Source: Gordonia westfalica (GTDB taxonomy: Bacteria > Actinomycetota > Actinomycetes > Mycobacteriales > Mycobacteriaceae). Taken from it: a stretch of 64,000 nucleotides of DNA. Position numbers and translations under genes: made by a program. The notes beneath the pieces are model-generated. The model saw only the letters and a program-made list of their open reading frames with translations. It ran no database searches and was not told where the DNA came from. The DNA lies in NCBI RefSeq assembly GCF_900105725.1, contig NZ_FNLM01000034.1, forward strand, positions 2,666,001 to 2,730,000, read 5' to 3'. Of this stretch, positions 48,308 to 62,683 are shown in pieces. Each line of letters starts with the position of its first letter. The first letter of the stretch is position 1.

Positions 48308-49684
48308 CTACAACGACCTGAGCAGCTCCGGCAGGGTCTCGTCGATCGTGCCGGTGTGGAAGTCCGCACTTCGGTACCAGTCGGTCGCCAGCACGGCGTC
48401 GAGGAAGCCGAGCGTGGTGACCGGTCCGGCCCAACGGGTCTCGCCGACAGCCCGAACCGCGCGGGCGATCGCCTGCTCACGGTCGGCCCCGGCGACCACG
48501 ATCTTGGCCACCATCGAGTCGTAGTGCGGCTGAATCACCGATCCGGAGACCACGCCGCTGTCGATGCGCACACCCGGTCCGGCCGGGAAGGTGCATCCCG
48601 CAACGGCTCCCGGCGATCCGAAGAAGTGGAACTTCGGGTTCTCGGCGTTGAGACGGAGTTCGATGACCGCACCGCGGGCGACGATCTCGTCCTGCTTGAC
48701 GCCGATCGGGTCCCCGAAGGCGATCCGCAGCTGCTCGGCCACCAGGTCGACGCCCGTGAGTTCCTCGGTCACACCGTGTTCCACCTGGATCCGGGTGTTC
48801 ATCTCGATGAAGTAGTACTCCCCCGCCGGATCCACCAGGAACTCGACGGTGCCGGCCGAGGTGTAACCGACCTCGGCGGCCAGCGCGACAGCCGACGCGT
48901 GCATCGCGGCCGCGACCTCACGATCGAGTGTCGGCGCGGGAGCCTCCTCGACGACCTTCTGCCGACGACGCTGCAGCGAGCACTCGCGCTCGAAGAGATG
49001 CACGACGTTGCCGTGCGAGTCACCGAGAACCTGCACCTCGACGTGGCGCACCTGCGGGAGCGAACGCTCGAGGTAGAGGCCGTCGTCGCCGAAGGCACCC
49101 ATCACCTCGCGTCGCGCGTCGGCGAACTGTTCGACGAGGTCGTCGGGTCCGGCCGCGGCACGAATCCCCTTGCCACCGCCACCTGCCCGCGCCTTGACGA
49201 GGACCGGGTACCCGACCTCGTCCGCGGCGCGGAGCGCGGCATCGGCGTCGGCGAGCAGGTCGCTGCCCGGGACCACCGGGACACCGGCCGCACGTGCGGT
49301 GCGCCGCGCGGTCTCCTTGTCACCCATCATGGAGATGACCTGCGGCGACGGCCCTACCCAGCGGAGACCGGCGTCGATCACCGCCTGCGCGAATTCGGCG
49401 TTCTCCGAGAGGAATCCGTATCCCGGGTGGATGGCCTCGGCGCCCGTGCGCACCGCGGCGTCGAGGATCGCCTCGACCCGCAGGTAGCTGTCGGCCGCGG
49501 CCGCGGGACCGATCTCGACGGCCTCGTCGGCCAGGCGGACGTGCAGGCTGTCGGCATCCACATCCGAGTGGACCGCGATGGCGGTCCAGCCCAGGTCGTG
49601 GCAGGCGCGGATGATACGAACGGCGATCTCACCGCGGTTGGCGATGAGCACCCGCCGCGCCGGTGCGCCGTTCCCCGGAGACAT
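48308..49684 (-). CDS. accC: Biotin carboxylase of the 5-oxoprolinase operon
   Basis: 458 residues. VLIANRGEIAVRIIRAC, HPGYGFLSENAEFA, ATP-grasp loop AGGGGKGIR, EMNTRIQVEHGVTE (the usual Pro after His is Gly). Carboxylates biotin on a carrier protein with ATP and bicarbonate. It is not a general acetyl-CoA carboxylase subunit here but the last gene behind pxpABC and a small carrier. Such carboxylase/carrier pairs often accompany pxpABC, whose PxpC resembles a biotin-dependent carboxyltransferase. It directly abuts the carrier gene. Confidence 0.87.
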   Translation of the reverse strand: MSPGNGAPARRVLIANRGEIAVRIIRACHDLGWTAIAVHSDVDADSLHVRLADEAVEIGPAAAADSYLRVEAILDAAVRTGAEAIHPGYGFLSENAEFAQAVIDAGLRWVGPSPQVISMMGDKETARRTARAAGVPVVPGSDLLADADAALRAADEVGYPVLVKARAGGGGKGIRAAAGPDDLVEQFADARREVMGAFGDDGLYLERSLPQVRHVEVQVLGDSHGNVVHLFERECSLQRRRQKVVEEAPAPTLDREVAAAMHASAVALAAEVGYTSAGTVEFLVDPAGEYYFIEMNTRIQVEHGVTEELTGVDLVAEQLRIAFGDPIGVKQDEIVARGAVIELRLNAENPKFHFFGSPGAVAGCTFPAGPGVRIDSGVVSGSVIQPHYDSMVAKIVVAGADREQAIARAVRAVGETRWAGPVTTLGFLDAVLATDWYRSADFHTGTIDETLPELLRSL

Positions 49685-49922
49685 CAGGAAGCCTCGAACG
49701 TGGCGATGACCTGCCCGGCGTCGACCTGTGCCCCGCTGTCCACCGCGTATCCGGTGAACACGCCGGCGACCTCGGCCTCGATCGGCGCGAACATCTTCAT
49801 CACCTCGACGACGCCGATCTGCTGTCCGATCTCGACGGTGTCGCCGGGCTTGCAGAACACTTCACTGTCGGGATCCGGACGGTGCCAGAACAATCCGGGG
49901 TGGGGCTCTGCATCTCGGTCAT
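49684..49922 (-). CDS. accB: Biotin carboxyl carrier protein, frame broken by a one-base deletion
   Basis: The C-terminal 69 residues contain a biotinyl domain with VEVMKMFAP (the biotin-bearing Lys; EVMKM replaces the common EAMKM). In this frame no proper start exists. An ATG at 49922 behind AGGAGA opens MTEMQSPTP in another frame; one extra base near 49894-49899 joins both to MTEMQSPTPGLFWHRP, a typical start of small carriers in pxp clusters (79 residues in total). The shift is at CACCCCGGATTG, probably a sequence error. A TTG at 49893 would be the only start otherwise. Confidence 0.75.
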
Positions 49923-49949
49923 TGTGTTCTCCTTGGGTCGGGAGCCGCG

Positions 49950-50918
49950 TCAGACGATGGCGGCGACGGCGTTGTGGACGTGTTCGCTGTGTTCGTGGCG
50001 GAGTTTGAGTGCGGTGTCGATGTCGACCGCGGTGAACTTCACCCGATCGGGCGCCTTGGCCTGCGCGAGGAGGTCCAGATCGGCCGAGATCACGGTGCCG
50101 AGCGTGACGAATCCGCCGCCGGTCACGGCGTCGCGGAGCAGGCAGATGGGTTCCGAACCGTTGGGCACCTGGATCGATCCGAGCGGATATCCCAGCGAGA
50201 CGACGTTGCTGGGGTTGTCCCCCGCTCCGAACGGCGCCTCCCGTTCGACGAAGTCCAGGGGTTCCCCGACGAATCGGTAGCCCGTGCGGTTCGATTCCGG
50301 CGACAGCTGGTACTCACGTTCGGTGAAGGCCCGCAACGATTCCGGGGTGAACCGATAGGCGGCCAGTCCGAGCACGATCCGGGCCTCGATCGACGACGAG
50401 GGAGTCGGCCGGTACCGGACCGGGAGCCGACGCCCCTCCTCGACCGCACGCGTCCGGGGTCCGAGAGGCAGGACGTCTTTCGCGCGCAGTGCGCGCCCCT
50501 CGAAACCGCCGATGCCCGAGAGCATGTAGGTCGATCGGCTGCCCATCACGACCGGCACGTCGATACCGCCGGCGAACGCGAGGTAGGCGCGGGCACCGCT
50601 GCGGAGCGGTCCGAGCCTGAGTTCGGAACCGGCAGGCAGCCACATCGCCGTCCACGACGGGTGCACCACGCCGTCGATGATCACGTCGACATCCGCACCG
50701 GTCACCGCCACGATGCAGCCGGTGTCGGAGACGAGGGTGGGTCCCATCAGCGCGGCCTCGAGGGTCGCGGCCTCGGGACCGTTGCCCACCAGGGCATTCG
50801 CGATGCGATGCGCGAACTGGTCGAGCGCCCCGGCCGGCGGCATCGCCAACGTGAGCTTGCCGGGACGCCCCAGGTCCTGGACGGTGGTCTGCAGTCCGGG
50901 CTTGATGATCGTGATCAT
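49950..50918 (-). CDS. pxpC: 5-oxoprolinase subunit C (biotin-dependent carboxyltransferase fold)
   Basis: 322 residues of the KipA/PxpC family: QDLGRPGKLTLAMPPAGALD near the start, SPESNRTGYRFVG, and TLGTVISADLDLLAQAKAPD at the end. With PxpA and PxpB it forms the prokaryotic ATP-dependent 5-oxoprolinase that opens 5-oxoproline to glutamate. Overlaps pxpB by four bases. Confidence 0.88.
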   Translation of the reverse strand: MITIIKPGLQTTVQDLGRPGKLTLAMPPAGALDQFAHRIANALVGNGPEAATLEAALMGPTLVSDTGCIVAVTGADVDVIIDGVVHPSWTAMWLPAGSELRLGPLRSGARAYLAFAGGIDVPVVMGSRSTYMLSGIGGFEGRALRAKDVLPLGPRTRAVEEGRRLPVRYRPTPSSSIEARIVLGLAAYRFTPESLRAFTEREYQLSPESNRTGYRFVGEPLDFVEREAPFGAGDNPSNVVSLGYPLGSIQVPNGSEPICLLRDAVTGGGFVTLGTVISADLDLLAQAKAPDRVKFTAVDIDTALKLRHEHSEHVHNAVAAIV

Positions 50919-51841
50919 CGCAGTTCTCCTACCAGGGAACGGGTGTAGCCGAGCGGGTCCGCGGTGAACGCCTGCAGGTCGAATTCGATGGCGGCACGGT
51001 TGATCTCATAGGTTCCGGCCTCGAACGCGGTGACGACCTCGTCGTATCCCGACTCGTCGACCGGCGTGAACTTCACCAGGGTGGGCGCCGGCAACAGGAC
51101 CGGCGAGGAGGTGAATCCGGGACGGGTCATCGACAAGTCGACGACCGGCAGCGCCGACCGCCCGAGAAGCTGGAAACCGCCCGGCGATTCGACCGGGTAG
51201 ATGTTCATCTGGTTGCCGCCGTGCCCGACCGCGCGCGCCGGCGTCTGGGTCCGCGGGCTCAGGTACTTGGGCACCTGGATCTGCATCTCCTGCGGTACCA
51301 GCTGCACGCATTCGGCGTTGCCGGGGATGAAGTTGTTGAAGGTCGCGATGAACGGATGCGCCGAGTGCGCCGCGATCAGCTCGTCGGCGGAGTCGAAACC
51401 GTTGACCCGCGCCGTGAATTCGACATCGGTCTCCTCCGGTGACGGGTGCCGGTCACGGAAGCGCGCGGTCACCTCGTTCGTCCAGGGGTCGTTGTAGTAC
51501 ACCGGGATCTCGACGATCGTGGTGGCGATGGTGGGCGCGGAGCCGCCCCCACCGGAGTCGACGACCTTCTGATGCGCCGCGACGAGGGTCGGGATGAGGT
51601 CGCGGGGGTCGAGGTCCTCCGGGCGCACGCGGACCATGTAGCTGACGTGCGCCGGCACGATGTCGACGACGCCGTCGATGTCGAGCGAGACGATCGCGGC
51701 CACGATGGACTGCACCTGTAGTGCCACCGCGAGATCCATGGCCTCGGAGAGTTCGACGAAGACGAACTCGTCGCCGCCGAAGCTGAGCCGCGCACCGCCG
51801 GGGAGCGCGAAGTACTGGGGTGTCAGGGTCGCGGCGGTCAT
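50915..51841 (-). CDS. pxpB: 5-oxoprolinase subunit B (KipI-like)
   Basis: 308 residues, KipI/PxpB family with cyclophilin-like domains: GDEFVFVELSE, EIPVYYNDPWTNE, FIPGNAECVQLVPQEMQIQV, GHGGNQMNIYPVESPGGFQL. Binds ATP/substrate with PxpC. Longer than the usual B subunit of about 220 residues, with extra segments at both ends. Overlaps pxpA by four bases. Confidence 0.86.
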   Translation of the reverse strand: MTAATLTPQYFALPGGARLSFGGDEFVFVELSEAMDLAVALQVQSIVAAIVSLDIDGVVDIVPAHVSYMVRVRPEDLDPRDLIPTLVAAHQKVVDSGGGGSAPTIATTIVEIPVYYNDPWTNEVTARFRDRHPSPEETDVEFTARVNGFDSADELIAAHSAHPFIATFNNFIPGNAECVQLVPQEMQIQVPKYLSPRTQTPARAVGHGGNQMNIYPVESPGGFQLLGRSALPVVDLSMTRPGFTSSPVLLPAPTLVKFTPVDESGYDEVVTAFEAGTYEINRAAIEFDLQAFTADPLGYTRSLVGELR

Positions 51842-52608
51842 GCCGGCAGTCCTGCCCGGCGCTCGACGGGGTGTACCGCGACGCCCTCGGACTCGAGTCG
51901 ACGACGGACCGCAGCGGCAACCGCGACGGCGTTCGGCCGATCACCGTGGATACAGATCGACGTCACCGGCATGGCGATCGTCGCACCGCTGACGGTCTCG
52001 ACGGAACCGTGCGCCATCTGGAGCGCCCGCGTCGCGACCGCTTCCGGATCCTTCTCCGCCGGAACGGGTTCGATGACGTTGAAGCCGTTGTCGTCGAAGT
52101 CCAGGTCGGCGGCGTTCTCCGGGGTCACCGGGAGGCCGGCCCGCACCACCGCGTCCATGGCCGGACCCGGCGACATGACCAGCGGAATCCCGGTCTGCAC
52201 GCTCTGGATCGCGCGGGCCATGGCGACGGCCAGCTCCGCGTCGCGGACCGTCGTGCCCATCAGCGAGCCGTGCGGCTTCACGTGGGACAGCGTCACCCCC
52301 TCGTCCGCGGCGATCGCCGCGAGCGCACCCACCTGGTACAGCACGTAGTCGACGGTGTCGGTCAGCTTCGCCGGGATCGCCCGTCGGCCGAAGCCCAGCA
52401 GGTCCGGATAGCCGGGATGCGCGCCGATCGCACAGTCGGCGTCGCGCGCACCCACCACGGCCTTGCGCATGTTGACCGGGTCACCGGCGTGATAGCCGCA
52501 AGCGATGTTGACCGTCGAGACGACATCGAAGAGCTCCTCGTCGTTCCCGAGCTTCCACCGACCGAAGCTCTCCCCGGCGTCGGCATTGAGATCGATCGAC
52601 AGTGTCAT
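51838..52608 (-). CDS. pxpA: 5-oxoprolinase subunit A (LamB/YcsF family)
   Basis: 256 residues: SIDLNADAGESFGRW at the start, NIACGYHAGDP, GAHPGYPDLLGFGRR, SHVKPHGSLM, SICIHGDRPNAVAVA. Subunit A of ATP-dependent 5-oxoprolinase; homologues with other partners act on related lactams. First gene of the pxpABC-accBC block; AGGAA precedes the ATG. Confidence 0.92.
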   Translation of the reverse strand: MTLSIDLNADAGESFGRWKLGNDEELFDVVSTVNIACGYHAGDPVNMRKAVVGARDADCAIGAHPGYPDLLGFGRRAIPAKLTDTVDYVLYQVGALAAIAADEGVTLSHVKPHGSLMGTTVRDAELAVAMARAIQSVQTGIPLVMSPGPAMDAVVRAGLPVTPENAADLDFDDNGFNVIEPVPAEKDPEAVATRALQMAHGSVETVSGATIAMPVTSICIHGDRPNAVAVAAAVRRRLESEGVAVHPVERRAGLPA

Positions 52609-52661
52609 CACAGGTTCCTATCTGGGTGTCGTACAGGGGTTTCGGAGGTTCTCGATTGTTC

Positions 52662-52700
52662 GGGTGTGGGTCGACGATGGGGGACCGTCGACCCACACCC
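52662..52700 (-). other. Strong hairpin between the binding-protein gene and pxpA
   Basis: Perfect 15-bp stem GGGTGTGGGTCGACG / CGTCGACCCACACCC with a nine-base loop. No T tract follows on the minus strand, so it is more likely a 3'-stabiliser of the upstream binding-protein message or a partial terminator. Confidence 0.6.
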
Positions 52701-52779
52701 CGGCCGAATCGGCCGTGCTGCACGCCGGGGACGGGAAGTCCCAGGGGGGGAGGAACTCCCGCCGCCCGACGTGCGGGTC

Positions 52780-54012
52780 CTACTTCTGGACGCAGCCGTT
52801 CAGGCCCTTGGGGGTCTGGCCGACCTCGACCGGGCCGGGGGTCCAGCCCTCGTCGCAGGCGCCGCGGGTGTAGATGCGACGGCTCTCCGGCTGGGCGAAC
52901 TCGTTCATGTCCGGCAGAGGCTGCACGGTCGGGAACGCGTCACCGGTGCGGGCCGCGTCGATCGTGGCCTCCGGCAACAGGTCCTGGTTGAAGATGATGG
53001 TGACGAAGCTGTCGTCGACGCCCTTGAAGTAGTTGCAGCCGTCCTCGAAGGTGGTGCCCGGGCATTCCTTCGCGGTCTCGGTGGTGGTCCACGGCATGGG
53101 CATCTCGATGTTGTTCGGCACGCCCTCGGCGCCGTTCTCGAGGATGTGGAGGCCGACCTTCATGGCCACGGCGCCCTGTGCGGGTGCCGAACCGGAGGCG
53201 ACGCCGGGCCAGCCCGCGCCGAGTTCCTTCACGAAGTAGTTGCTCGACTCACCGGTGACCGGGACACGCTTGCCCGCGGCCTGCAGTGCCTTCACCACGC
53301 CGGCCTCGCCGTCCTGCGACCACACGCCGTCGACGTCGGGATGCGCGGCGAGCGCCTTGGCCGTCTGCTGCTGGCTGACCGAGGAGTTCCAGTCACCGTG
53401 GTATTCGGAGATGACCTGGATGCCCGGGTACCGGTTGAACACGGCTTTGGCGGTCTCGTAGTGGACGGTGTCGGTGGCGGTGCCGGCGACGCCGCGGTTC
53501 ATGAAGATCTTGCCCTTGCCGTCGAGCATGTCGACGAGCGCCTCGGCGGTCTGCGCACCGAAGAACGGCTTGGTCTTGTCGTCGACGCGTGGGCCGGTGA
53601 TGAACGCGACGTTGTAGGCGCACGGCGCGTTGACCGTCGAGTCGTAGAAGACGAAGGTCACACCCTGTGCGCAGCCCTGTGCGACAACCGGATCCAGCGC
53701 GGTCGGCGACAGCGGGTAGGACACGATGAGCTTGGCGCCCGAAGAGATCATCGACTGGATGTCGGAGATCTGCTTCTGGACGTCGGTGCCCGAGATCTGC
53801 TTCTGGACCGTGTACTTCTCGGCGTACTCCGGCGAGGTCGCCACGGCCATCGCCAGGTTGGCGGCCTCGTCCTGCCAGTTGTTGCCGCTGTAGGAGAGGT
53901 TCAGGAACACCTTCTCCTTGCCGCCGTCGTCGCCACCACCACAGGCGGCGACGCCGAAGCACGTCAGCGCAGCCACGGCGGCTGCTGCCACCTTCCGCAT
54001 GTGCAACTTCAT
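52780..54012 (-). CDS. ABC transporter substrate-binding lipoprotein (CUT2 / ribose-type family)
   Basis: 410 residues. Lipobox GVAAC (Cys 24) behind a short signal, then a type I periplasmic-binding fold (VFLNLSYSGNNWQDEAANLA, DIQSMISSGAKLIVSYPLSP, DGVWSQDGEAGVVKALQAAG). Fold and neighbours are those of sugar importers of the ribose type, but the operon context (5-oxoprolinase) suggests another small solute, perhaps a lactam or an amino-sugar/alcohol. Six Cys in the C-terminal half could form disulfides. ATG at 54012 chosen as it begins the signal peptide. Confidence 0.82.
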   Translation of the reverse strand: MKLHMRKVAAAAVAALTCFGVAACGGGDDGGKEKVFLNLSYSGNNWQDEAANLAMAVATSPEYAEKYTVQKQISGTDVQKQISDIQSMISSGAKLIVSYPLSPTALDPVVAQGCAQGVTFVFYDSTVNAPCAYNVAFITGPRVDDKTKPFFGAQTAEALVDMLDGKGKIFMNRGVAGTATDTVHYETAKAVFNRYPGIQVISEYHGDWNSSVSQQQTAKALAAHPDVDGVWSQDGEAGVVKALQAAGKRVPVTGESSNYFVKELGAGWPGVASGSAPAQGAVAMKVGLHILENGAEGVPNNIEMPMPWTTTETAKECPGTTFEDGCNYFKGVDDSFVTIIFNQDLLPEATIDAARTGDAFPTVQPLPDMNEFAQPESRRIYTRGACDEGWTPGPVEVGQTPKGLNGCVQK

Positions 54013-54055
54013 CGTTCTTCTTTCTCTCGATGGGTATTTGTTTGGCTCGCTCGCT

Positions 54056-54197
54056 TGAGGTGCGAGGAGAAGCGCGACCCTCCCGCTCCCTGAGGTGCGA
54101 GGAGAAGCGCGACCCTCCCGCTCCCTGAGGTGCGAGGAGAAGCGCGACCCTCCCGCTCCCTGAGGTGCGAGGAGCGAGAGCGACGAGCCTCGAAGGG
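54056..54197 (-). repeat. Three 35-bp direct repeats and a terminal dispersed element
   Basis: TGAGGTGCGAGGAGAAGCGC plus GACCCTCCCGCTCCC is repeated three times without spacers (54056-54160), followed by TGAGGTGCGAGGAGCGAGAG with CGACGAGCCTCGAAGG (54161-54196). The last unit is the same element that lies in the Mce-associated gene at 11973-12010. The array fills the 203-base gap between the binding-protein and permease genes of the ABC operon. Confidence 0.88.
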
Positions 54198-54215
54198 CCG
54201 CCTGCCGAGAACCTC

Positions 54216-55187
54216 TCAGCGCCGACCGGACTGGAACACCCGGTTTCCGAGCAGCGCGGCGATGATGATCAGGCCGTAGAGCACCTGCTTCCACCCCTCG
54301 GCGAGTCCGGCGGCGCTGATGTCGGTGCCCAGCAACGTGATCAGGATCGCGCCGCCGACGGTGCCGATGAACGAGCCCGCCCCGCCCCGGATCGACGAAC
54401 CGCCGACGACGACGGCCGTGATGCTCGGCAGCAGCCAGCTGTTGCCGATGCTCAGGTCGGCGCCCGACGAGTAGCCGAGGAGCGCGATGCCGGCGAGGCC
54501 GTAGGCGATGGCCGCGACCGCGTAGGTCATCACGTAGGTGCGGATCACCGGGATGCCCGACAGCTTTGCGGCCGTGGGGCTTCCGCCGACCGCGAAGGCC
54601 CGGCGGCCGAGCACCGAACGGTGCTGGATCGCCCACCCGAGCACGCAGACGACGAGAAGCATCCAGATGGGGGTGCTGATGCCGAGGATCGACGAGTCGC
54701 CGAACCACGACGACAGCTGGGTCGGCGACTGCTGGGCCGGGGCACCGCGACTCACACCGAGCAGCAGGGCTGCGACGATCGAGCCCGTCGCGAGCGTCAC
54801 GATGAAGGCGGGGAATCCGGCCTTGCCGACCAGCAGGCCGTTGACCACACCGACCACGGCACAGCCGAGCAGGGTGAGCAGGATCGCCACCGGGAGCGGC
54901 ATCCCGTCGGAGACAAGTCTTCCGGTCAGGTAGGCGCCCAGGGTGACGACGGTGGCGAGCGAGAGGTCGATACCGCCGGTGAGGATCACCAGACCCTGGC
55001 CGAAGGCGACCAGGACGAGGAACAGGCTCAGGACCAGGGTGCCGTCGACCAGCGACCAGGACGGGAAGTTCTCACTGGCCAGGCGGGACAGCGGGATCGC
55101 CGCCAACAGCAGCACCCACACGATGGCGGTCTGGCTGCGCAGCCGCTCCTTGACGGGCGAACCCGCGCTCGCGATCGTTGCGACCAT
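54216..55187 (-). CDS. ABC transporter permease, ribose-type (second)
   Basis: 323 residues, about nine helices with the RbsC-family motifs LVILTGGIDLSLATVVTLGAY, GRRAFAVGGSPTAAKLSGIP and a GSSIRGGAGSFIGTVGGAIL loop. Inner-membrane subunit of the CUT2-type importer. ATG at 55187 behind AAAGGAGG; overlaps the preceding permease gene by one base. Confidence 0.88.
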   Translation of the reverse strand: MVATIASAGSPVKERLRSQTAIVWVLLLAAIPLSRLASENFPSWSLVDGTLVLSLFLVLVAFGQGLVILTGGIDLSLATVVTLGAYLTGRLVSDGMPLPVAILLTLLGCAVVGVVNGLLVGKAGFPAFIVTLATGSIVAALLLGVSRGAPAQQSPTQLSSWFGDSSILGISTPIWMLLVVCVLGWAIQHRSVLGRRAFAVGGSPTAAKLSGIPVIRTYVMTYAVAAIAYGLAGIALLGYSSGADLSIGNSWLLPSITAVVVGGSSIRGGAGSFIGTVGGAILITLLGTDISAAGLAEGWKQVLYGLIIIAALLGNRVFQSGRR

Positions 55188-56269
55188 CAGCTCCGCACCT
55201 CCTTTCGGGTGCCGGCGCCGGCGAGGGCAGGCTCGGCTGCGTCGTCGGTCACCGGATCTGTGTGGACGTTCGGTCCGGCCTCGGTCGTCCCGGGTGAGAC
55301 CGACACCGGACGCCGGCGGGTGGTCAGGAAGCGGGCCGTCAGCGGGATCGCGAGGGCCAGGATGATGACGATGCCCTGGCATGCGCCGACCCAGAAGTCC
55401 TCGACACCGAGACCGAAGAGCACCTTCGGAATGGCCATGAGGGTCGCGGCTCCGAACATCGCGGCGATGACGCTGCCGCGCCCGCCCTTGAAGCTGACCA
55501 GGCCCAACGCCATGGCGGCGAAGGCGGTCAACTGGAAAGGCGTACCCGCCGAGGGGTTTCCGGTTGCGGTGGTCCCGGCGAGCATCGCACCGGCCAGGCC
55601 GTACAGCAGACCGGCGAGGACCCAGGCGCTGAACTCTGCCCCGCGCACCGGTACACCCGAGAGCCGGGTGGCCTCACGATCGCCACCGAGGGCGACGACC
55701 GCGACACCGGTGCGGGTGTTGCGGAAGATCAGCCATCCGATCGCCACCACGAGGAGGATGATGAGCGCCATCGGGATGGTGCCACCCACGCTCTTCTGGA
55801 CGAAAGTCGTGAAGTCGGTCGGGATGGTGCCGCCCGGTGCGGGCAGCACGACCAGCGCCAGACCGGTGAGCACGATGTGGACGCCGAGGCTGACCGCCAG
55901 CGACTGCAACCCGAAGAACACGACGAGCAGACCGTTGACCGCTCCGGACACCATCCCGATGCCCAGGACGAGCGCGACGATCAACCACGGCGACGAGGCG
56001 CCGGACATCTGGGTTGCGCAGACGACGTTGGTCAGCGAGATGACGCCCGCCACCGACAGATCGAAGCCGCCGGTGAGCAACACGACCGTGGTGCCGGCGG
56101 CGGCGAGCGCCAGCGGCGCCACGAGCGCCATGAAGTTCCCGAACGAATAGCTGGTGCCCTCTTGCGGCGACACCATGAGCAGGACGCCGTAGACCACGGC
56201 GAAGATCCCCACTGCGGGGAGGGTGACCGACCAGCGGCCCCACAATTGCTTCAGCACATCGGTGTTCAT
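55187..56269 (-). CDS. ABC transporter permease, ribose-type (first)
   Basis: 360 residues, RbsC family: VVLLTGGFDLSVAGVISLTN, GVAVVALGGDREATRLSGVP, KGGRGSVIAAMFGAATLM, with a polar C-terminal tail of about 40 residues. Forms a heterodimer with the second permease. ATG overlaps the ATPase stop by four bases (ATGA). Confidence 0.88.
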   Translation of the reverse strand: MNTDVLKQLWGRWSVTLPAVGIFAVVYGVLLMVSPQEGTSYSFGNFMALVAPLALAAAGTTVVLLTGGFDLSVAGVISLTNVVCATQMSGASSPWLIVALVLGIGMVSGAVNGLLVVFFGLQSLAVSLGVHIVLTGLALVVLPAPGGTIPTDFTTFVQKSVGGTIPMALIILLVVAIGWLIFRNTRTGVAVVALGGDREATRLSGVPVRGAEFSAWVLAGLLYGLAGAMLAGTTATGNPSAGTPFQLTAFAAMALGLVSFKGGRGSVIAAMFGAATLMAIPKVLFGLGVEDFWVGACQGIVIILALAIPLTARFLTTRRRPVSVSPGTTEAGPNVHTDPVTDDAAEPALAGAGTRKEVRS

Positions 56270-57771
56270 GCCGATTCCTTCTCTGCGTCCGACCCCGGGT
56301 CTCTCACCGGGTCTTTCCAGGCCAGCGCGGCGCTCATCACCGCGGTCTCGCTGATCTCGTCTCCCACCAGCTCGCTGACGATGCGGCCGCCGGCGACGAC
56401 GTAGACGCGGTCGCACAGGCCGACGAGTTCGGGGATCTCGGTCGAGTACAAGAGGACACCGCGTCCGCGGTTGGCGAACTCCCTTGTCATCTCGTAGATC
56501 TCGAACTTGGTCGCCGCGTCGACACCACGGGTGGGATCGAACAACAGCAGACAGGCGGGATCACGGGCGACCGCCCGACCGAAGATGACCTTCTGCTGGT
56601 TGCCGCCCGACAGCGTCGAGATCTGCTTGGCGAGCATCGGTTCGGGGAGGTTCACACGTTGCGCGGCCTCGAGTGCGACCGACTGCTCGCGCGACCGGTT
56701 GATGAGCGGGCCGGCCGAGAACGCGCCCATGCTCGCCACGGTCAGGTTGAACTCGGAGGTCATCTCGGCGAACAGCGCCTCGGTCTTGCGTTCCTCCGGG
56801 ACGAGCGAGGTCGAGACCGCGGCGTCACCGCGGTCGATGTCGATCGAGCCGCCGAGAGTGCGGACCTGCCCGTGCAGGGCATACACCAGGTCCTTCTGCC
56901 CCTGCCCCTCGAGGCCCGCGAGTCCGACGATCTCACCGCGCCGCACCGTCAGGTCCGCTTCGCGCAGACGATCGCCCGCGGCAAGGGTTTTCACCGCCAC
57001 CACGACGTCGGCCGCCTCGGGTCCGGCGTGCCTGGCCGGGAAGCTCTGCTCGAAGGAGCGGCCGATCATCATCTCCACGAGTTCGGTCTCGTTGACCGAT
57101 CCGCGTTCGAAGGTGCCGACGGTGCGCCCGCTTCGCAGGACGGTCCCGCGATCGCAGATCTCCTCGATCTCCGGGAGTTTGTGGCTGATGTAGATGACCG
57201 CGGTCCCGTCGGCGGCCATTCGTCGCACCGCGTCGAAGAGCCAATCGGTGTCGGGCAGTGCGCCCGTCGGCTCGTCGAGGACGAGCAGTTTGGGGTCCCG
57301 CGCCATCGCGGCGACGATCTCCACCCGCTGGCGGGTGGCGAGATCGGCGTCGGCGATCAGCAGGGCCGGATCGACGGATTCCAAGCGGAACCGCGAGAGG
57401 ATCTCGCTCGCCCGGTCACGCATCTTCGCGCGACTGACGAGCCCCGACCATCCGCGCGGGAGATTCGGCCAGCACAGCTTGGTCGCCACATCGACGTTCC
57501 CCGGCGAGCTGAGCTCCTGGTACGCGATCCCCAGGCCCGCAGCGCGCGAGGCCTGCGGACGCCCGAGTTCCAGTGTCGCACCGTCGATGCTGACGCTGCC
57601 GGCGTCCGGTGTGACGACACCGGCGAGCACCTTCATCAGAGTGGACTTGCCCGCACCGTTCTCACCGAGAAGCCCGTGCACCTCCCCCTGCGCGAGGGAG
57701 AGATCGACACCGGCGAGAGCCCGCGTCGCGCCGAAGGACTTCTCGACCCCCTCGATCTTGATGTATCCCAT
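56266..57771 (-). CDS. ABC transporter ATPase with two nucleotide-binding domains (RbsA-like)
   Basis: 501 residues. First domain: Walker A GENGAGKST, Walker B KLLVLDEPTGALPD; its signature motif is degenerate (LATRQRVEIVAAMARDP). Second domain: Walker A degenerate (GLEGQGQKDL), signature LSGGNQQKVIFGRAVARDP intact. This complementary pattern is normal for RbsA/MglA proteins. First gene of the operon; ATG at 57771 behind GAGGATCG. Confidence 0.88.
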   Translation of the reverse strand: MGYIKIEGVEKSFGATRALAGVDLSLAQGEVHGLLGENGAGKSTLMKVLAGVVTPDAGSVSIDGATLELGRPQASRAAGLGIAYQELSSPGNVDVATKLCWPNLPRGWSGLVSRAKMRDRASEILSRFRLESVDPALLIADADLATRQRVEIVAAMARDPKLLVLDEPTGALPDTDWLFDAVRRMAADGTAVIYISHKLPEIEEICDRGTVLRSGRTVGTFERGSVNETELVEMMIGRSFEQSFPARHAGPEAADVVVAVKTLAAGDRLREADLTVRRGEIVGLAGLEGQGQKDLVYALHGQVRTLGGSIDIDRGDAAVSTSLVPEERKTEALFAEMTSEFNLTVASMGAFSAGPLINRSREQSVALEAAQRVNLPEPMLAKQISTLSGGNQQKVIFGRAVARDPACLLLFDPTRGVDAATKFEIYEMTREFANRGRGVLLYSTEIPELVGLCDRVYVVAGGRIVSELVGDEISETAVMSAALAWKDPVRDPGSDAEKESA

Positions 57772-57822
57772 TCGATCCTCACACTCTGTCATGCCGGACA
57801 ACCCCATTGCTGAACTGTCTTT

Positions 57823-57833
57823 CTGTTGAACAG
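57823..57833 (-). promoter_or_regulatory. Candidate GntR operator at the ABC-pxp operon
   Basis: CTGTTGAACAG, palindromic around the central G, 52 bases before the ATPase start. Confidence 0.65.
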
Positions 57834-57950
57834 TGAATCAGCGAATGTTTTCTCCCGCGTACTTTTCATGTTTCTGCCGTGTTACGAGATTGCCGTCACC
57901 CCGTGGTCGAGCTCAGCTCGGCCACTCCCGCGCCGCGATCCACCGCCCCA

Positions 57951-57973
57951 CTGTTGAACAATTCGGATATCTT
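57951..57973 (+). promoter_or_regulatory. Candidate GntR operator and leaderless promoter of the gntR gene
   Basis: CTGTTGAACAA (57951-57961) differs from the other copies in one base. TATCTT (57968-57973) lies six bases before the ATG at 57980, giving a leaderless transcript. The operator would lie between the -35 and -10 elements, as for autorepression. Confidence 0.6.
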
Positions 57974-57979
57974 AGCGGC

Positions 57980-58675
57980 ATGGATCTCTCAGACTTCGTG
58001 ACGCTACAACGCACCACGACGCCCCAGCAGGTCGCCGACGGACTCCAGGACATGATCCTCAAGGGCGCACTGCTTCCCGGCGATCGCATCAACGAGAGCA
58101 CCCTGTCCCGCGACCTCGGGATCTCCCGCAACACGATGCGCGAGGCGGTACGCCTGCTCGAGGCCACCGGACTCCTCCGACCCCACCCCCGTCGCGGGAT
58201 GCAGGTCTGGGATCCGACCGACGAGGAGATCCTCGACCTCTTCGCCGCACGGTTCCACCTCGAGACCCTGGGCGCCCGCCAGGTCGCCGGCGACGTGGAC
58301 CTCACCGGAGTGCGCAAGGCATTCGACGAGTTCGCCGCCGTCCTCGAGAAACACGATCCCGACCTCATCGTCGAGAAGGACCTCAAGGTCCACCAGTCGG
58401 TGGTTGCACTGCTGGACAACGCTTTTCTCGCCTCGGTCTTCGAACAGCTGCTCCGCCAGATCCGCTTCTTCGCGTTCCTGCTGTCGATCGAGGAGCGCGA
58501 GTACGAGGACCACGACAAGCTGCGCGCCGAACACGAGGCGATCGTCAAGGCCCTCGAGTCCCGGAATGCCGAACGCGCCGCCGAGGTCGTCGGCGACACC
58601 GTCCTCCTCACCCGCGACGAGGTCCGCGAGGCCATCCGCAAGCGCCGCGCCCGGGAGAGTTCCGCGGGTAGGTGA
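57980..58675 (+). CDS. GntR-family (FCD/FadR-type) regulator
   Basis: 231 residues. N-terminal winged helix (QVADGLQDMILKGALLPGDR, STLSRDLGISRNTMREAVRLLEATGLLRPHPRRG), C-terminal all-helical FCD-like ligand domain (ARFHLETLGARQV, DLKVHQSVVALLDNAF, HEAIVKALESRNAERAAEVV). Likely ligand is an acid or amino acid. Shared palindromes indicate that it controls the divergent ABC-pxp-acc operon, itself and the aldH-kinase-phospho-lyase operon. Confidence 0.87.
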   Translation: MDLSDFVTLQRTTTPQQVADGLQDMILKGALLPGDRINESTLSRDLGISRNTMREAVRLLEATGLLRPHPRRGMQVWDPTDEEILDLFAARFHLETLGARQVAGDVDLTGVRKAFDEFAAVLEKHDPDLIVEKDLKVHQSVVALLDNAFLASVFEQLLRQIRFFAFLLSIEEREYEDHDKLRAEHEAIVKALESRNAERAAEVVGDTVLLTRDEVREAIRKRRARESSAGR

Positions 58676-58716
58676 GGCCGGCGGGATCGCCGCCACCAGG
58701 GTAACCCTCGGACCTA

Positions 58717-58745
58717 CTCGGCCGGCGGGATCGCCGCCGGCCGAG
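58717..58745. terminator. Bidirectional terminator between gntR and the PLP-enzyme gene
   Basis: 12-bp perfect stem CTCGGCCGGCGG / CCGCCGGCCGAG with a five-base loop between two convergent genes. No clear T tract, but the position fits. Confidence 0.6.
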
Positions 58746-58754
58746 CCGCCCCTC

Positions 58755-60077
58755 TCAGCTGTTCAGTACACCGCTCGCCGCGGCCAGTTCGGTCAGGAAC
58801 CTATCGGCATCGGCGGACGAGAAGGCCAGTGGCGGACGGATCTTCAGCACGTTGCCGTCGGGGCCGCTCGCCGAGATCAGCACGCGTCGCTGACGCAGTT
58901 CGTTGACGAGATCGGACGCCTTCACGGGGTCCGGACCACCGTCCGCGTCGGAGATCTCCACGCCGAGGAAGTATCCGATGCCGCGCACGTCGGTGACCGA
59001 GCCGAAAGGCCTCACGATGTCCTCGATACCGGCGCGCAGTGCCGCACCCACGGTTCGCGCACGGTCCTGAAGACCCTCGGACTCGATCACGTCGAGCACC
59101 GCGTTCGCGGCCGCGATGGGCACCGAGCTCCCGCCGAACGTGTTGAAGTAGCGCACGTTCCGGCCGAACTCCTCGGTGACCTCGGACCGGAAGATGGCGG
59201 CCGACACCGGGATTCCGTTGCCCATCGGCTTGCCGATGGTGACGATGTCGGGAACGATGCCGTGCCGCTGGAATCCCCACCACGACTCGCCGAGGCGGCC
59301 GAAGCCGGGCTGGACCTCGTCGGCGACGTAGAGACCACCCGCACGGTGGACCTCTTCCAGGATCGGCTTCAGGAAGCCGGCCGGGTCGGAGAACACGCCG
59401 TCACTGGAGAAGATGCCATCGGCGAAGAAGGCCGCGAGTCCGTAACCGTGGCGTTGCAGATCGGCGATGGCGGAACGGATCTCGGTCCGCATGTAGTCGT
59501 CGAGTGAGCCATCGGCCTTCCGCACGTCGGGCGCCTTGATGGTCCGGACGTGGGAGCCCAGCGGAGACCCGGTGCCGAGCGACGGTGAGAATGCCGCCAC
59601 CTCCGAGGTCAGTCCGTGGTAGGCACCCTCGGTGACGATCACGCCCTGATTCCCGGTGTAGTAGCGGGCAACTCGCAGCGCGAGGTCGTTGGCCTCCGAA
59701 CCGGTGCACGCGAAGGTCACGCGGTCGAGTTCCTTGGGGAAGGTGGCGACGAGCCGTTCGGCGTAGGCGACCAGCGATTCCTGGACGTATCGCGTGTTGG
59801 TGTTCAGTCGCTGCATCTGCTCGTGAACGGCGGCGACGACGTGTGGGTGGCTGTGGCCCACGCTCGGCACATTGTTGTAGACGTCGAGGTAGTCGTTGCC
59901 GTCGGCGTCGAAGAGGTGGGAACCCTCGCCGCGCACCACCGCGAGCGGCTCGCGGTAGAACAACCGGTATCCCGGACCGAGGACGTCTTCCCGACGTTCG
60001 ATCAGATGCCGGGTCCGCGGTTCGACGCGCTCGGCATCGGCGGGGTCGTAGGCGTTGACCATCACGGGCCTGCTCAT
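58755..60077 (-). CDS. Class III PLP enzyme, probable amino-alcohol-phosphate phospho-lyase
   Basis: 440 residues, aminotransferase class III fold: YLDVYNNVPSVGHSHPHVV, TGSEANDLALRVAR, VADEVQPGFGRLG, and the PLP Lys in TIGKPMGNGIPVSA. The NNVPSVGHSHP and GKPMGNG forms are those of AGXT2-like enzymes, which include ethanolamine-phosphate and phospho-hydroxylysine phospho-lyases as well as true aminotransferases. The adjoining kinase gene (overlap four bases) favours a phospho-lyase that releases ammonia and phosphate to give an aldehyde; the adjacent aldehyde dehydrogenase would oxidise it. Substrate not proven. Confidence 0.75.
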   Translation of the reverse strand: MSRPVMVNAYDPADAERVEPRTRHLIERREDVLGPGYRLFYREPLAVVRGEGSHLFDADGNDYLDVYNNVPSVGHSHPHVVAAVHEQMQRLNTNTRYVQESLVAYAERLVATFPKELDRVTFACTGSEANDLALRVARYYTGNQGVIVTEGAYHGLTSEVAAFSPSLGTGSPLGSHVRTIKAPDVRKADGSLDDYMRTEIRSAIADLQRHGYGLAAFFADGIFSSDGVFSDPAGFLKPILEEVHRAGGLYVADEVQPGFGRLGESWWGFQRHGIVPDIVTIGKPMGNGIPVSAAIFRSEVTEEFGRNVRYFNTFGGSSVPIAAANAVLDVIESEGLQDRARTVGAALRAGIEDIVRPFGSVTDVRGIGYFLGVEISDADGGPDPVKASDLVNELRQRRVLISASGPDGNVLKIRPPLAFSSADADRFLTELAAASGVLNS

Positions 60078-61186
60078 CGCTGGTGTTCTCCTTCACGTGC
60101 TTCGGATTGGGACGGTAGCGGTTTCGTGGCGGCGAGGCGGAGGCGGCTGCGCACGTCCTCGGCGTCGTCCTGATATGCGCGCCGCAGCGACGTCCAGTCA
60201 CGGGCGGCGTGGGTGACGAGGTAGGCGTGACGCTCGGGGTCACCCTGAGCGCGCCAGCCCACGACCAGCGCCCGGAGGAGAAGCCGACCGAGTGCGATCT
60301 CACGCAGGATCTCCACGTCCGCCACGGCCAGCGGCCGTGTGCGGAGGTAGCCCCCGAGGAACGTCAGCGCCTTCCCCCACGGGTCGGTCTCGTCGACACC
60401 GATCAGGTTGGCCATGCCGACGGCGACGTCGAACACGACGCTGGTGCGCACGACATCACCGAAATCGATGACACCCGTCACGAAGTCGGGGTCCTCCGGG
60501 TCGACGACGGCGTTGTACGGACTGAAGTCACCGTGGATGACCTGGCGCTCGAGGTCGGCGAGCCGGGGCACGACGACGTCGAGGTAGTCCCCGTAGACAC
60601 CGTGCGCGAGCGCACGGGATGCGTCATCCTCGATGAAGGTGAGCAGCTCCGGCATCTTGTGGAAGTTGCCCATGTCCCACAACAGCTTCCGCTCGTCACG
60701 CGGATGGGCGAAGCCCGCCATCGCGACAGTCAACCGGCCCAGCATGGACCCGGCCAGCGACCAGTGGTCGGCGGTGCGGGCACCGTCCTTGAGGAGATCC
60801 CCGGGGACGTAACTCAATACGCGCAGGATCCGCGGATAGGGCCGCGTTCCCTCGATGACCACCTCGCGGGCGCCGTCGAGGGTGGTGATCACCCGTTGCG
60901 CGGGAAGATCGGGGCACGTGGTCTCCAGATGGACCATGGCCGCGGTCTGCAGCTCGACCAGCTGCGGATCCTCGCCGGCGGGCGAACATTTCACGAGGTA
61001 GTCGCGGTCGGCGCGCAACCGGAAGGTGTCGTCCTTCTCGGTGGCCACCGGCTGCAGTTCGCCACGCAGCCCGTAGTTCTCGGACAGAAGTCGCTCGACG
61101 AGCCCGCGATCCACCGGCTCCTGAGGCGCGGCGATCGCGGTCTCGACGAGGACCTGGTCGAAGAAGCTCAGGGTGTCGTCGATCAT
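60074..61186 (-). CDS. APH-fold kinase, hydroxylysine/amino-alcohol kinase-like
   Basis: 370 residues of the aminoglycoside-phosphotransferase/choline-kinase fold. Brenner motif VIHGDFSPYNAVV and metal site GVIDFGDVV; LLWDMGNFHK resembles the hydroxylysine kinase family. It is sandwiched, with four-base overlaps on both sides, between the aldehyde dehydrogenase and PLP enzyme genes, so a catabolic role in phosphorylating an amino alcohol is far more likely than drug resistance. Confidence 0.75.
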   Translation of the reverse strand: MIDDTLSFFDQVLVETAIAAPQEPVDRGLVERLLSENYGLRGELQPVATEKDDTFRLRADRDYLVKCSPAGEDPQLVELQTAAMVHLETTCPDLPAQRVITTLDGAREVVIEGTRPYPRILRVLSYVPGDLLKDGARTADHWSLAGSMLGRLTVAMAGFAHPRDERKLLWDMGNFHKMPELLTFIEDDASRALAHGVYGDYLDVVVPRLADLERQVIHGDFSPYNAVVDPEDPDFVTGVIDFGDVVRTSVVFDVAVGMANLIGVDETDPWGKALTFLGGYLRTRPLAVADVEILREIALGRLLLRALVVGWRAQGDPERHAYLVTHAARDWTSLRRAYQDDAEDVRSRLRLAATKPLPSQSEAREGEHQR

Positions 61187-62646
61187 CGGCCCGGAACCAC
61201 GTTCACGTAGCGCAGGATCAGGTACTCCTCGATGCCTTCGGCGGCACCCTCACGGCCGACACCGGAGGCCTTTATCCCGCCGAAAGGTGCTGCGACATTG
61301 GAGATCAGGCCGGTGTTGATGCCGACCATGCCGGCGTCGATGGACCGTGCCACCCGGTTGGCCCGATCCAGGTCGGCGGTGAAGACGTAGGAGGCGAGCC
61401 CGTAGGAGGTGTCGTTGGCCGCGGCCACCGCCTCCTTCTCGTCGTCGAAGACGCTGACGATCGCCACCGGACCGAAGATCTCCTGGCCACGCAGCGGAGA
61501 TTCGAGAGGCACACCCGCGACCAGCGTCGCGGGTACGAAGCAGCCGGTGTCGGGAACCGCGCTGCGGGCCAACACCGTTCCGCCCGCGGCGACAGCGGTC
61601 TCGACGACCTCGGAACATTTGGCCTGCGCGCGCGAATCGATGACGGCGCCCACATCGGCACCGTCGGCGAAGCCGTCGGCCACCGTCAGCGCACCGACCT
61701 TCTCGGTGAGCTGCGCGAGGACGGCGTCGGCGATGCCCCGCTGCAGGTAGATCCGGTTGGCGGCGACACATGTCTGTCCGGAGTTGCGGAACTTGGCGAG
61801 CATGATGCCCTCGACCGCCCGGTCGACGTCGGCGTCGGCGAAGACCACGAACGGTGCGTCTCCGCCGAGTTCGAGTGAGGTCTTGGCGAAGTGCGCCGAG
61901 GCCAGTTCGTGCAGCACTCGGCCGACACCGGTCGACCCGGTGAAGGAGACCTTCCGGAGTCGCGCGTCGGAGAGCAACGGACCGCTGATCTCGGCCGGCC
62001 GGGTGGTGGTGAGCAGCGAGACGACGCCCGCCGGAACCCCCACCTCCAACAGCACCTGCACCAGGACATAGGACGCCAGCGGGGTGAGTTCGGACGGCTT
62101 GATGATCACCGTGTTCCCGGCCGCCAGCGCGGGTGCGACCTTCCGGGCGACCATGGCGAACGGGAAGTTCCACGGCGTAATGAGCAGGCAGGGCCCCACC
62201 GGCCGGGATTCGACGATGATGTCGGAGTTTCCGTCCGGCGCCTTTGTGATCCGTCCGCCCAGGCGTACGGCCTCCTCCGCGTACCACCGGAGATACTGTG
62301 CGCCGTAGGCGACCTCGCCCTTGGCTTCCGCGAGGACCTTCCCCGTTTCGGCACAGATGATCACGGCGAGTTCATCGGCGATCTCGAGAATTCGCGCGTG
62401 GGCGGTCATCAAGATGTCTGCGCGCCGGATCGGGCTCGTCGCCGACCAGTCGGCCATCGCGGCGGTCGCCACGTCGAGCGCGGCGAGAGCATCGGCCTCA
62501 CCCGCGTCGGCGACCGTCGCGATCTCCTCGCCGGTCACCGGCGACGTGACCGCCAGCGTGCGCGCTCCCTCCGGATCGCGCCAGCTCCCCACGTGGATGC
62601 CCGTCTCGAGATTCCTGAGCAGCTCACTACTCGCCCAACCCGCCAT
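61183..62646 (-). CDS. Aldehyde dehydrogenase (succinate-semialdehyde dehydrogenase-like)
   Basis: 487 residues, NAD(P)-dependent ALDH: ITPWNFPFAMVARKVAPALA, GSTGVGR, catalytic Glu in LELGGDAPFVVF, catalytic Cys in FRNSGQTCVAANRIYL. Closest in pattern to GabD. As first gene of the three-gene operon it would oxidise the semialdehyde made by the phospho-lyase. ATG at 62646 behind AGGAGAGAGG; the frame extends to 62781 without a start signal and across the operator. Confidence 0.88.
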   Translation of the reverse strand: MAGWASSELLRNLETGIHVGSWRDPEGARTLAVTSPVTGEEIATVADAGEADALAALDVATAAMADWSATSPIRRADILMTAHARILEIADELAVIICAETGKVLAEAKGEVAYGAQYLRWYAEEAVRLGGRITKAPDGNSDIIVESRPVGPCLLITPWNFPFAMVARKVAPALAAGNTVIIKPSELTPLASYVLVQVLLEVGVPAGVVSLLTTTRPAEISGPLLSDARLRKVSFTGSTGVGRVLHELASAHFAKTSLELGGDAPFVVFADADVDRAVEGIMLAKFRNSGQTCVAANRIYLQRGIADAVLAQLTEKVGALTVADGFADGADVGAVIDSRAQAKCSEVVETAVAAGGTVLARSAVPDTGCFVPATLVAGVPLESPLRGQEIFGPVAIVSVFDDEKEAVAAANDTSYGLASYVFTADLDRANRVARSIDAGMVGINTGLISNVAAPFGGIKASGVGREGAAEGIEEYLILRYVNVVPGR

Positions 62647-62660
62647 CTGCGCCTCTCTCC

Positions 62661-62683
62661 TACTGTTCAACAGTACAACTGTT
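62661..62683 (-). promoter_or_regulatory. Candidate GntR operator at the aldehyde dehydrogenase operon
   Basis: TACTGTTCAACAGTA (62661-62675), a perfect 15-base palindrome around C, containing the same CTGTT-N-AACAG core as at 57823 and 57951. A third half-site CTGTT (62679-62683) follows. It lies 15 bases before the start codon. Confidence 0.7.

Follow-up and report, generated by a model that had tools for sequence, protein, structure and literature searches.

Genes and palindromes at the locus

We analysed a window of 64,000 nucleotides of the Gordonia westfalica genome (contig NZ_FNLM01000034.1, positions 2,666,001 to 2,730,000 of the forward strand), in which positions 48,308 to 62,683 hold an operon for ATP-binding cassette (ABC) import and lactam opening, a regulator gene of the GntR family (gntR) and an operon for an aldehyde dehydrogenase (ALDH), a kinase and a phospho-lyase. 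The palindrome CTGTTNAACAG stands, perfect or nearly so, before each of these three units, and as a sequence-level prediction their inclusion in a regulon of the local GntR protein is well supported. The wider reading, in which this single-regulator regulon serves a catabolic route of 13 genes for a hydroxylated lactam, is our best explanation and seems rather probable. The first-pass annotation had counted about 13 genes, which agrees with the nine of the ABC/lactam operon, gntR itself and the three of the aldehyde dehydrogenase operon.

All nine genes of the ABC/lactam operon lie on the reverse strand. The first encodes a double ABC ATPase of the RbsA/AraG type (56266..57807; two Pfam ABC_tran stretches, and 364.7 bits against the NCBIfam AraG model, under its cut-off of 689), and is followed by two permeases (55187..56269 and 54216..55187; both Pfam BPD_transp_2) and the substrate-binding protein of a sugar-type ABC importer (52780..54012; Pfam Peripla_BP_4, 1.7e-37). 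Between the second permease and the binding-protein gene lies a 35-base tandem repeat (54048-54174; 3.6 copies, 97% matches); the corresponding gap in G021, another genome of the genus, is about 120 bases long as read by eye and has no such repeat. Next come a LamB/YcsF (PxpA) family protein (51838..52608; Pfam LamB_YcsF, 3.3e-76), two carboxyltransferase proteins, one with domain C/D (PxpB/KipI/AHS1-like; 50915..51841; Pfam CT_C_D, 1.7e-35) and one with domain A/B (PxpC/KipA/AHS2-like; 49950..50918; Pfam CT_A_B, 6.6e-85), a biotin carrier protein in a frame of 69 amino acids that starts from a TTG (49684..49893; Biotin_lipoyl, 1.4e-14, matched from profile position 17) and an AccC-like biotin carboxylase subunit (48308..49684; Pfam Biotin_carb_N, CPSase_L_D2 and Biotin_carb_C). 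An earlier description of these genes as a 5-oxoprolinase module holds in so far as YcsF, CT_C_D and CT_A_B proteins occur together, but the PxpA is a rare paralogue accompanied by biotin genes and the set is not the usual 5-oxoprolinase. PxpA of the window type (at least 61% identity) is found in three of 59 genomes of the genus, namely this one, G021 (88%) and one taken to be Gordonia soli (G038; 61%), and all 59 possess at least one further PxpA copy with 36-44% identity to that of the window, located in the present genome at G000:C34:2920087.

The regulator (57980..58675, forward strand) has Pfam matches to GntR (PF00392, 8.2e-14) and to the effector domain FCD (PF07729, 2.7e-16), and its N-terminal winged helix and C-terminal FCD domain, together with a palindrome near its own start and those of its targets, place it in the FadR-like GntR/FCD subfamily. 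The second operon lies on the reverse strand and begins with an ALDH (61183..62646) that resembles succinate-semialdehyde dehydrogenase (SSADH) by structure and family matches; its best solved relatives are enzymes of this kind, and its scores stay under the NCBIfam SSADH cut-offs (TIGR01780, 484.9 vs 646.35; NF008415, 445 vs 828). A small-molecule kinase of the APH fold and hydroxylysine-kinase type follows (60074..61186; Pfam APH, 3.9e-17; N-terminal part of PRK06148, 4.8e-61, below the cut-off), and then a pyridoxal phosphate (PLP) phospho-lyase of the class III aminotransferase fold (58755..60077; IGKPMGNG at residue 281). Among solved structures the PLP enzyme scores best against the phospho-lyases 5G4I (370 bits) and 6TOR (325 bits), followed by dialkylglycine decarboxylase (176 bits); it is therefore nearer to phospho-lyases than to aminotransferases, and its gene adjoins that of an APH-type kinase. 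The plasmid collection held no near copy that would back a plasmid origin of the cluster: GntR matched there twice (36-37%, E 1e-30) and the kinase 15 times, in every case at less than 60% identity.

Position and rarity of the operator sites

The three palindrome positions in the first-pass annotation were all recovered. Operator 1 (CTGTTGAACAG, 57823-57833) is a perfect copy upstream of the ABC/lactam operon, operator 2 (CTGTTGAACAA, 57951-57961) carries one mismatch and lies before gntR, and operator 3 (TACTGTTCAACAGTA, 62661-62675) is a perfect palindrome of 15 bases whose 11-base core (62663-62673) is again a perfect copy; none of the three is assigned to a strand. In window coordinates, the distances from the end of the site to the ATG are 15 nt (57807), 18 nt (57980) and 16 nt (62646, from the core), or 51 nt for operator 1 if the ABC ATPase starts at an alternative ATG at 57771. 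Placed in this way, 15-18 nt before the start codon, the sites would suit a repressor that covers the point where transcription begins.

That the window holds no other copy, as had been reported, is correct for perfect copies but not for those with one mismatch, since a further one (CCGTTGAACAG) is present at 18742-18752. With up to two mismatches the window contains 24 matches against 9.1 expected. The proposed genome-wide search bore out the rarity of the perfect motif: the 6.405-Mb genome has three perfect copies, the third of which (C34:3370380) falls inside a frame of 490 amino acids. The looser form YTGTTNAACAR occurs ten times in the genome, three of them in this 4.85-kb stretch, and the chance of three in ten copies being clumped so tightly anywhere is about 2e-4 by a rough, post hoc estimate. 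Five of the other seven copies lie inside coding-like frames, according to a test on stop-to-stop frames that also scores the cluster's own sites as inside. By the same test the remaining two CTGTTCAACAA copies, at G000:C34:188923 (L089) and 227157 (L090), fall outside clear coding frames and are possible additional members of the regulon.

Conservation of the sites in relatives

At E 1e-30 the GntR protein is found in two of the 59 genomes of the genus, this one and G021 (93% identical), and the kinase is found in the same two at E 1e-50. All three sites are retained in G021, two of them identical and one changed at the centre base, while the surrounding DNA differs.

To reach beyond the genus, named genomes were scanned with an alignment of 23 GntR proteins, giving 27 loci (L007-L033) at 40% identity or more. 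According to tblastn with 12 window proteins, 18 of the 27 also hold the kinase and the phospho-lyase. The site test was made on 18 loci, namely L006 and 17 of these kinase/phospho-lyase loci (L007 was left out), with the starts of tblastn segments, which are not curated, serving as gene starts. Every one of the 18 has a site with at most one mismatch within 300 bases upstream of gntR, of the kinase or kinase fusion, of a linked ALDH or, in L006, of the ABC gene. The density amounts to 31 sites in 11,085 upstream bases against eight in 332,830 other bases, a 116-fold difference, and to 28 in 10,356 against eight in 314,558 if L006 is excluded. A site before gntR itself was observed in 11 of the 18 loci (L006 and ten of Mycolicibacterium or Mycobacterium) vs none of 38 loci with distant GntR proteins; the latter are those of the 53 loci L034-L086 with at least 20 kb of sequence, and were scanned over the 300 bases before gntR only. 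The positive loci are not independent, because many come from closely related Mycolicibacterium. In most Mycolicibacterium loci the site occupies the position that operator 2 has in the window. The centre base varies among the positive loci (T in L018, C in L024 and G in L019), as expected of a spacer.

An operator code shared with PxpR

The closest precedent is PxpR, a GntR repressor of Corynebacterium glutamicum that controls pxpTABC. According to a 2026 paper, mutation or deletion of its motif agattgttcaacaatct raised reporter expression 6.5-fold, the tested operator was TTGTTCAACAA, and PxpR bound 5-oxoproline with a dissociation constant of 726 nM (PMC13274462). Both that system and the window combine a GntR repressor, the operator core TGTTNAACA, import and lactam opening by YcsF and carboxyltransferase proteins; unlike it, the window has an ABC transporter, added biotin genes and the kinase/phospho-lyase/ALDH operon. 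The predicted regulon is a variation on catabolism under GntR control, for which PxpR is a close precedent.

We searched 401 genomes of the family for the longer PxpR-type operator GATTGTTNAACAATC and found it in 22. Of the 15 three-kilobase loci kept around it, 11 have a GntR match and nine a PxpA match. The recognition helix SRNTxREA is present in all seven GntR proteins aligned from these 11, as in that of the window, with which they share 26-30% identity (25-30% if two lactam-linked GntR proteins are included in the comparison). The effector positions are D134/H138/H185 in the window group versus N/H/N in five and D/H/N in two of the seven. Judged by these seven proteins rather than by the sequence of PxpR itself, the window GntR is not a PxpR orthologue, as H185 differs from all of them and D134 from five. 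The shared helix and the differing effector positions indicate that the operator code seems to be shared but the ligand probably is not. The earlier interpretation is partly supported. Its idea of one palindrome, one GntR and both operons is borne out: the sites are kept in G021, and the motif precedes the same regulator/kinase/phospho-lyase unit in Arthrobacter-type genomes and Mycolicibacterium. The motif is not unique to the local GntR, since PxpR uses the same core. More distant GntR proteins (31-32%) occur near PxpA and carboxyltransferase genes at L035 and L039, where TTGTTGAACAA precedes the matched GntR segment by 120-155 bases, and are likely to represent a further PxpR-like group.

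Both modules on one strand in a probable Gordonia soli genome

In the genome taken to be G. soli the two modules are joined in a single row. One strand carries an APH-aminotransferase fusion, the ABC ATPase, two permeases, the binding protein (68%), PxpA, the CT_C_D and CT_A_B proteins and the phospho-lyase (57%), and continues with a fusion of biotin carboxylase and biotin carrier and with an ALDH of the SSADH-like kind (50%). The phospho-lyase gene thus has carboxyltransferase genes on one side and that of the biotin carboxylase on the other, and the ALDH gene follows downstream. Beside the row, in divergent orientation, lies a gene for a PucR-type regulator. The fusion at the head of the row (L097, L103) is 874 amino acids long and occurs besides the separate phospho-lyase. 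A frame of 362 amino acids adjoining it (L097:17655-18743) has no Pfam or NCBIfam match and overlaps the PucR gene; it may not be real. Matches whose longest contigs are of equal length suggest that two further environmental contigs may carry both modules, one of length 14,239 with the kinase (P0077) and binding protein (P0194), and one of length 21,687 with GntR (P0007), kinase (P0080) and binding protein (P0251).

The proposed regulon and pathway

The sequences themselves show the conserved operator sites, the families to which the genes belong, the single-strand row in G. soli and the carboxylate residues of the dehydrogenases; in the scheme below, the repression, the inducer, the order of steps and the substrate are our interpretation. 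The GntR/FCD protein would act as a repressor that binds the CTGTTNAACAG operators at the starts of its own gene and of the two flanking operons, with autoregulation through operator 2, and would release all three jointly in the presence of a pathway intermediate. The sugar-type ABC importer would take in a small hydroxylated lactam, whose ring would be opened with ATP by the YcsF/PxpA-type protein, the carboxyltransferase pair, the biotin carboxylase and the carrier, yielding an amino-hydroxy acid. The APH-type kinase would then phosphorylate the hydroxyl group, the PLP phospho-lyase would form an omega-carboxy semialdehyde by eliminating phosphate and ammonia, and the SSADH-like dehydrogenase would oxidise this to a dicarboxylate. 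In the C4 version, our first choice, the predicted route runs from 4-hydroxy-2-pyrrolidinone through 4-amino-3-hydroxybutyrate and succinate semialdehyde to succinate; a C5 chain would fit nearly as well.

The nature of the intermediate is suggested by the dehydrogenases. The Arg/Arg/Ser residues that presumably bind the carboxylate, as in human SSADH, are kept in all five phospho-lyase-linked SSADH-like ALDHs (window, G021, G. soli, L022 and L026), whereas both of the second-kind linked ALDHs, those of L022 and L026, have Trp, Gly and Ile at these positions. Hence a carboxylate is most likely present in the product of the phospho-lyase, and the intermediate is probably an amino-hydroxy acid rather than the amino alcohol that the first-pass annotation had in mind.

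Since GntR relatives in other genera accompany the kinase and phospho-lyase and not the lactam genes, the inducer may belong to the kinase/phospho-lyase part of the route, as either the amino-hydroxy acid or the phosphate made from it, and the lactam operon may have joined the regulon by gaining an operator. The second-kind ALDH of the Mycolicibacterium locus L022 passes the subfamily cut-off for aminobutyraldehyde dehydrogenase (702 vs 615 bits) but not the stricter equivalog one (609 vs 909), and could channel a hydroxy-diamine into the same amino-hydroxy acid. The clusters of L022 and L026 also carry a YdiJ-like dehydrogenase with flavin adenine dinucleotide (FAD) and an iron-sulphur (Fe-S) centre, an amine-oxidase-type FAD protein (CrtO-like in L022) and an amino acid permease. 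The simplest scheme for both cluster types would be an amino-hydroxy acid derived from lactam opening in Gordonia or from hydroxy-diamine oxidation in Mycolicibacterium. Only tentatively do we go further, to a new catabolic pathway in which kinase, phospho-lyase and GntR form an interchangeable cassette, lactam-fed in Gordonia and hydroxy-diamine-fed in Mycolicibacterium, with 4-amino-3-hydroxybutyrate as shared intermediate and inducer.

Parts of this scheme have counterparts in known systems. As in the 5-oxoprolinase PxpABC, the window has YcsF, CT_C_D and CT_A_B proteins in a row (PMC8453981); unlike it, the window operon adds a biotin carboxylase and a biotin carrier. The window-linked dehydrogenase has the SSADH carboxylate site and its set is tied to lactam genes, unlike the ethanolamine-phosphate and 5-phosphohydroxylysine systems, where phospho-lyases of PLP class III act with an APH-type kinase, hydroxylysine kinase, to give an aldehyde. 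The pxpABC set is not known to include a biotin carboxylase. In Aspergillus nidulans, 2-pyrrolidinone use involves the YcsF-type LamB and the biotin-type carboxylase LamA, a fungal and fused arrangement that resembles the window in bringing together these two kinds of protein; we know of no kinase or phospho-lyase for lamA/lamB. A limited search of open-licence literature found no joint lactam/phospho-lyase regulon or pathway.

Contrary evidence and alternative explanations

Several observations weigh against the proposed regulon and route. The G. soli genome has no GntR match at E 1e-30, and neither L097 nor L103 has a YTGTNNNACAR site. The conservation expected at orthologous promoters is therefore seen in G021, with all three sites, but not at the G. 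soli cluster, and a cluster with neither GntR neighbour nor palindrome implies that the local GntR is not part of the conserved core. The genes for PxpA, the carboxyltransferases and the biotin carboxylase were found in none of the 27 GntR loci of other genera in the sequence examined by tblastn. Seven of the 18 tested loci have no good site before gntR itself, since in the five Arthrobacter-type ones it precedes only the kinase and in L014 and L016 only the second ALDH. Ten of the 27 loci were left out of the site test, L010 and L017 as short contigs, L007 because kinase and phospho-lyase are more than 6 kb away, and L025 and L027-L032 for want of a kinase match in the sequence examined; upstream of gntR these ten show only sites with two to four mismatches. 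Promoter scans recognised no sigma-70-type promoter or hexamers at the operator sites.

Two further points of this kind concern the lactam operon itself. The biotin carrier gene looks N-terminally disrupted in this assembly: the frame opened by the ATG at 49922 ends after 40 amino acids, the remaining 69-amino-acid frame does not have the start of the domain, and the copy in G021 has 79 amino acids. The cause may be a sequencing error or a genuine lesion, and in the second case this strain may be impaired in the lactam step. Relatives of the importer binding protein (41-63%) also occur without lactam genes, in G610, in G1226 and on rhizobial plasmids. At E 1e-90 the protein was found in two of 394 genomes of the class (this genome and, at 43%, G610) and in one of 106 from the genus to which G771 belongs (G1226, 63%), and at E 1e-70 in one of 397 of the order, this genome itself; its absence at E 1e-90 from 106 genomes of another genus of the family (g22) is uninformative, as that set has no positive. 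The stretches read in G610 and G1226 contain no lactam, kinase or phospho-lyase matches. On the rhizobial plasmids, the three loci examined of four matches (L127, L128 and L129; 45-48%) all lie near genes resembling N-acyl homoserine lactonase, two of them near alpha/beta hydrolases and two near histidinol dehydrogenase. The lactonase-like neighbours hint at small ring compounds as possible substrates of this importer family.

Chains of C4, C5 and C6 are all compatible with the data, which also counts against the specific route. The same regulon might thus serve a longer chain, 5-amino-4-hydroxyvalerate leading to glutarate semialdehyde or 5-hydroxylysine leading to 2-aminoadipate semialdehyde, derived from a six- or seven-membered lactam; we regard this as possible though unlikely. 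Several kinase relatives are named hydroxylysine kinase in their source, GabD-type dehydrogenases also accept glutarate semialdehyde, and the YdiJ-like protein of L022 (457 bits, below the cut-off of 1350) might act on 2-hydroxyglutarate, an end step of lysine-type routes. The best model scores of the ALDH, however, are for SSADH. Moreover, HglS (PF07063), which links 2-oxoadipate to D-2-hydroxyglutarate and is needed for one hydroxylysine route, is absent from all three Gordonia genomes searched and present in four of eight others; the route from hydroxylysine through 2-oxoadipate and HglS is for that reason not our first choice.

It is improbable that the biotin set carboxylates the substrate in the manner of urea carboxylase, with YcsF acting on the carboxylated product, so that no lactam is opened or the substrate is a cyclic ureide. 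The CT_A_B and CT_C_D domains, the biotin carboxylase and the carrier are parts of urea-carboxylase-type enzymes, and the biotin carboxylase, here a separate protein, scores 525.2 bits against the urea carboxylase model TIGR02712, below its cut-off of 1303.85. Against this, no amidase family match was found among the cluster proteins scanned, and the operon also encodes LamB/YcsF, a combination shared with PxpABC, the enzyme that opens 5-oxoproline. More doubtful still is a second operon that degrades an amino alcohol such as ethanolamine or 1-amino-2-propanol and shares only its regulator with the first: the second-closest solved phospho-lyase, 6TOR, does act on ethanolamine phosphate, but simple lactam hydrolysis yields an amino acid, the modules stand in a row on one strand in G. 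soli, and the carboxylate-binding residues are kept in all five linked SSADH-like ALDHs compared. Finally, it is very improbable that another, PxpR-like GntR of the SRNT type encoded elsewhere reads the palindromes and leaves only part of the control to the local protein, for although the core motif is shared with PxpR, and the GntR proteins at PxpR-type operator loci have the same recognition helix, the longer operator is absent from the 53 genomes of the genus in the sample, this one included, and all 18 tested loci, which encode relatives of the local GntR, carry the window motif.

Implications

The regulon and hydroxy-lactam route proposed here would offer a concrete candidate substrate class for biotin-linked YcsF operons, for bacterial class III phospho-lyases and for their APH-type kinases, all of which are vaguely annotated. 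The comparison with PxpR suggests that one GntR operator code, TGTTNAACA together with the SRNTxREA helix, is used by two groups of regulators that differ in their effector residues, and the distribution of the modules suggests that a regulon grew when an operator was gained before an entry module. If the pathway is true, some bacteria rely on phosphorylation followed by elimination, in place of transamination, to remove nitrogen from hydroxy amino acids.

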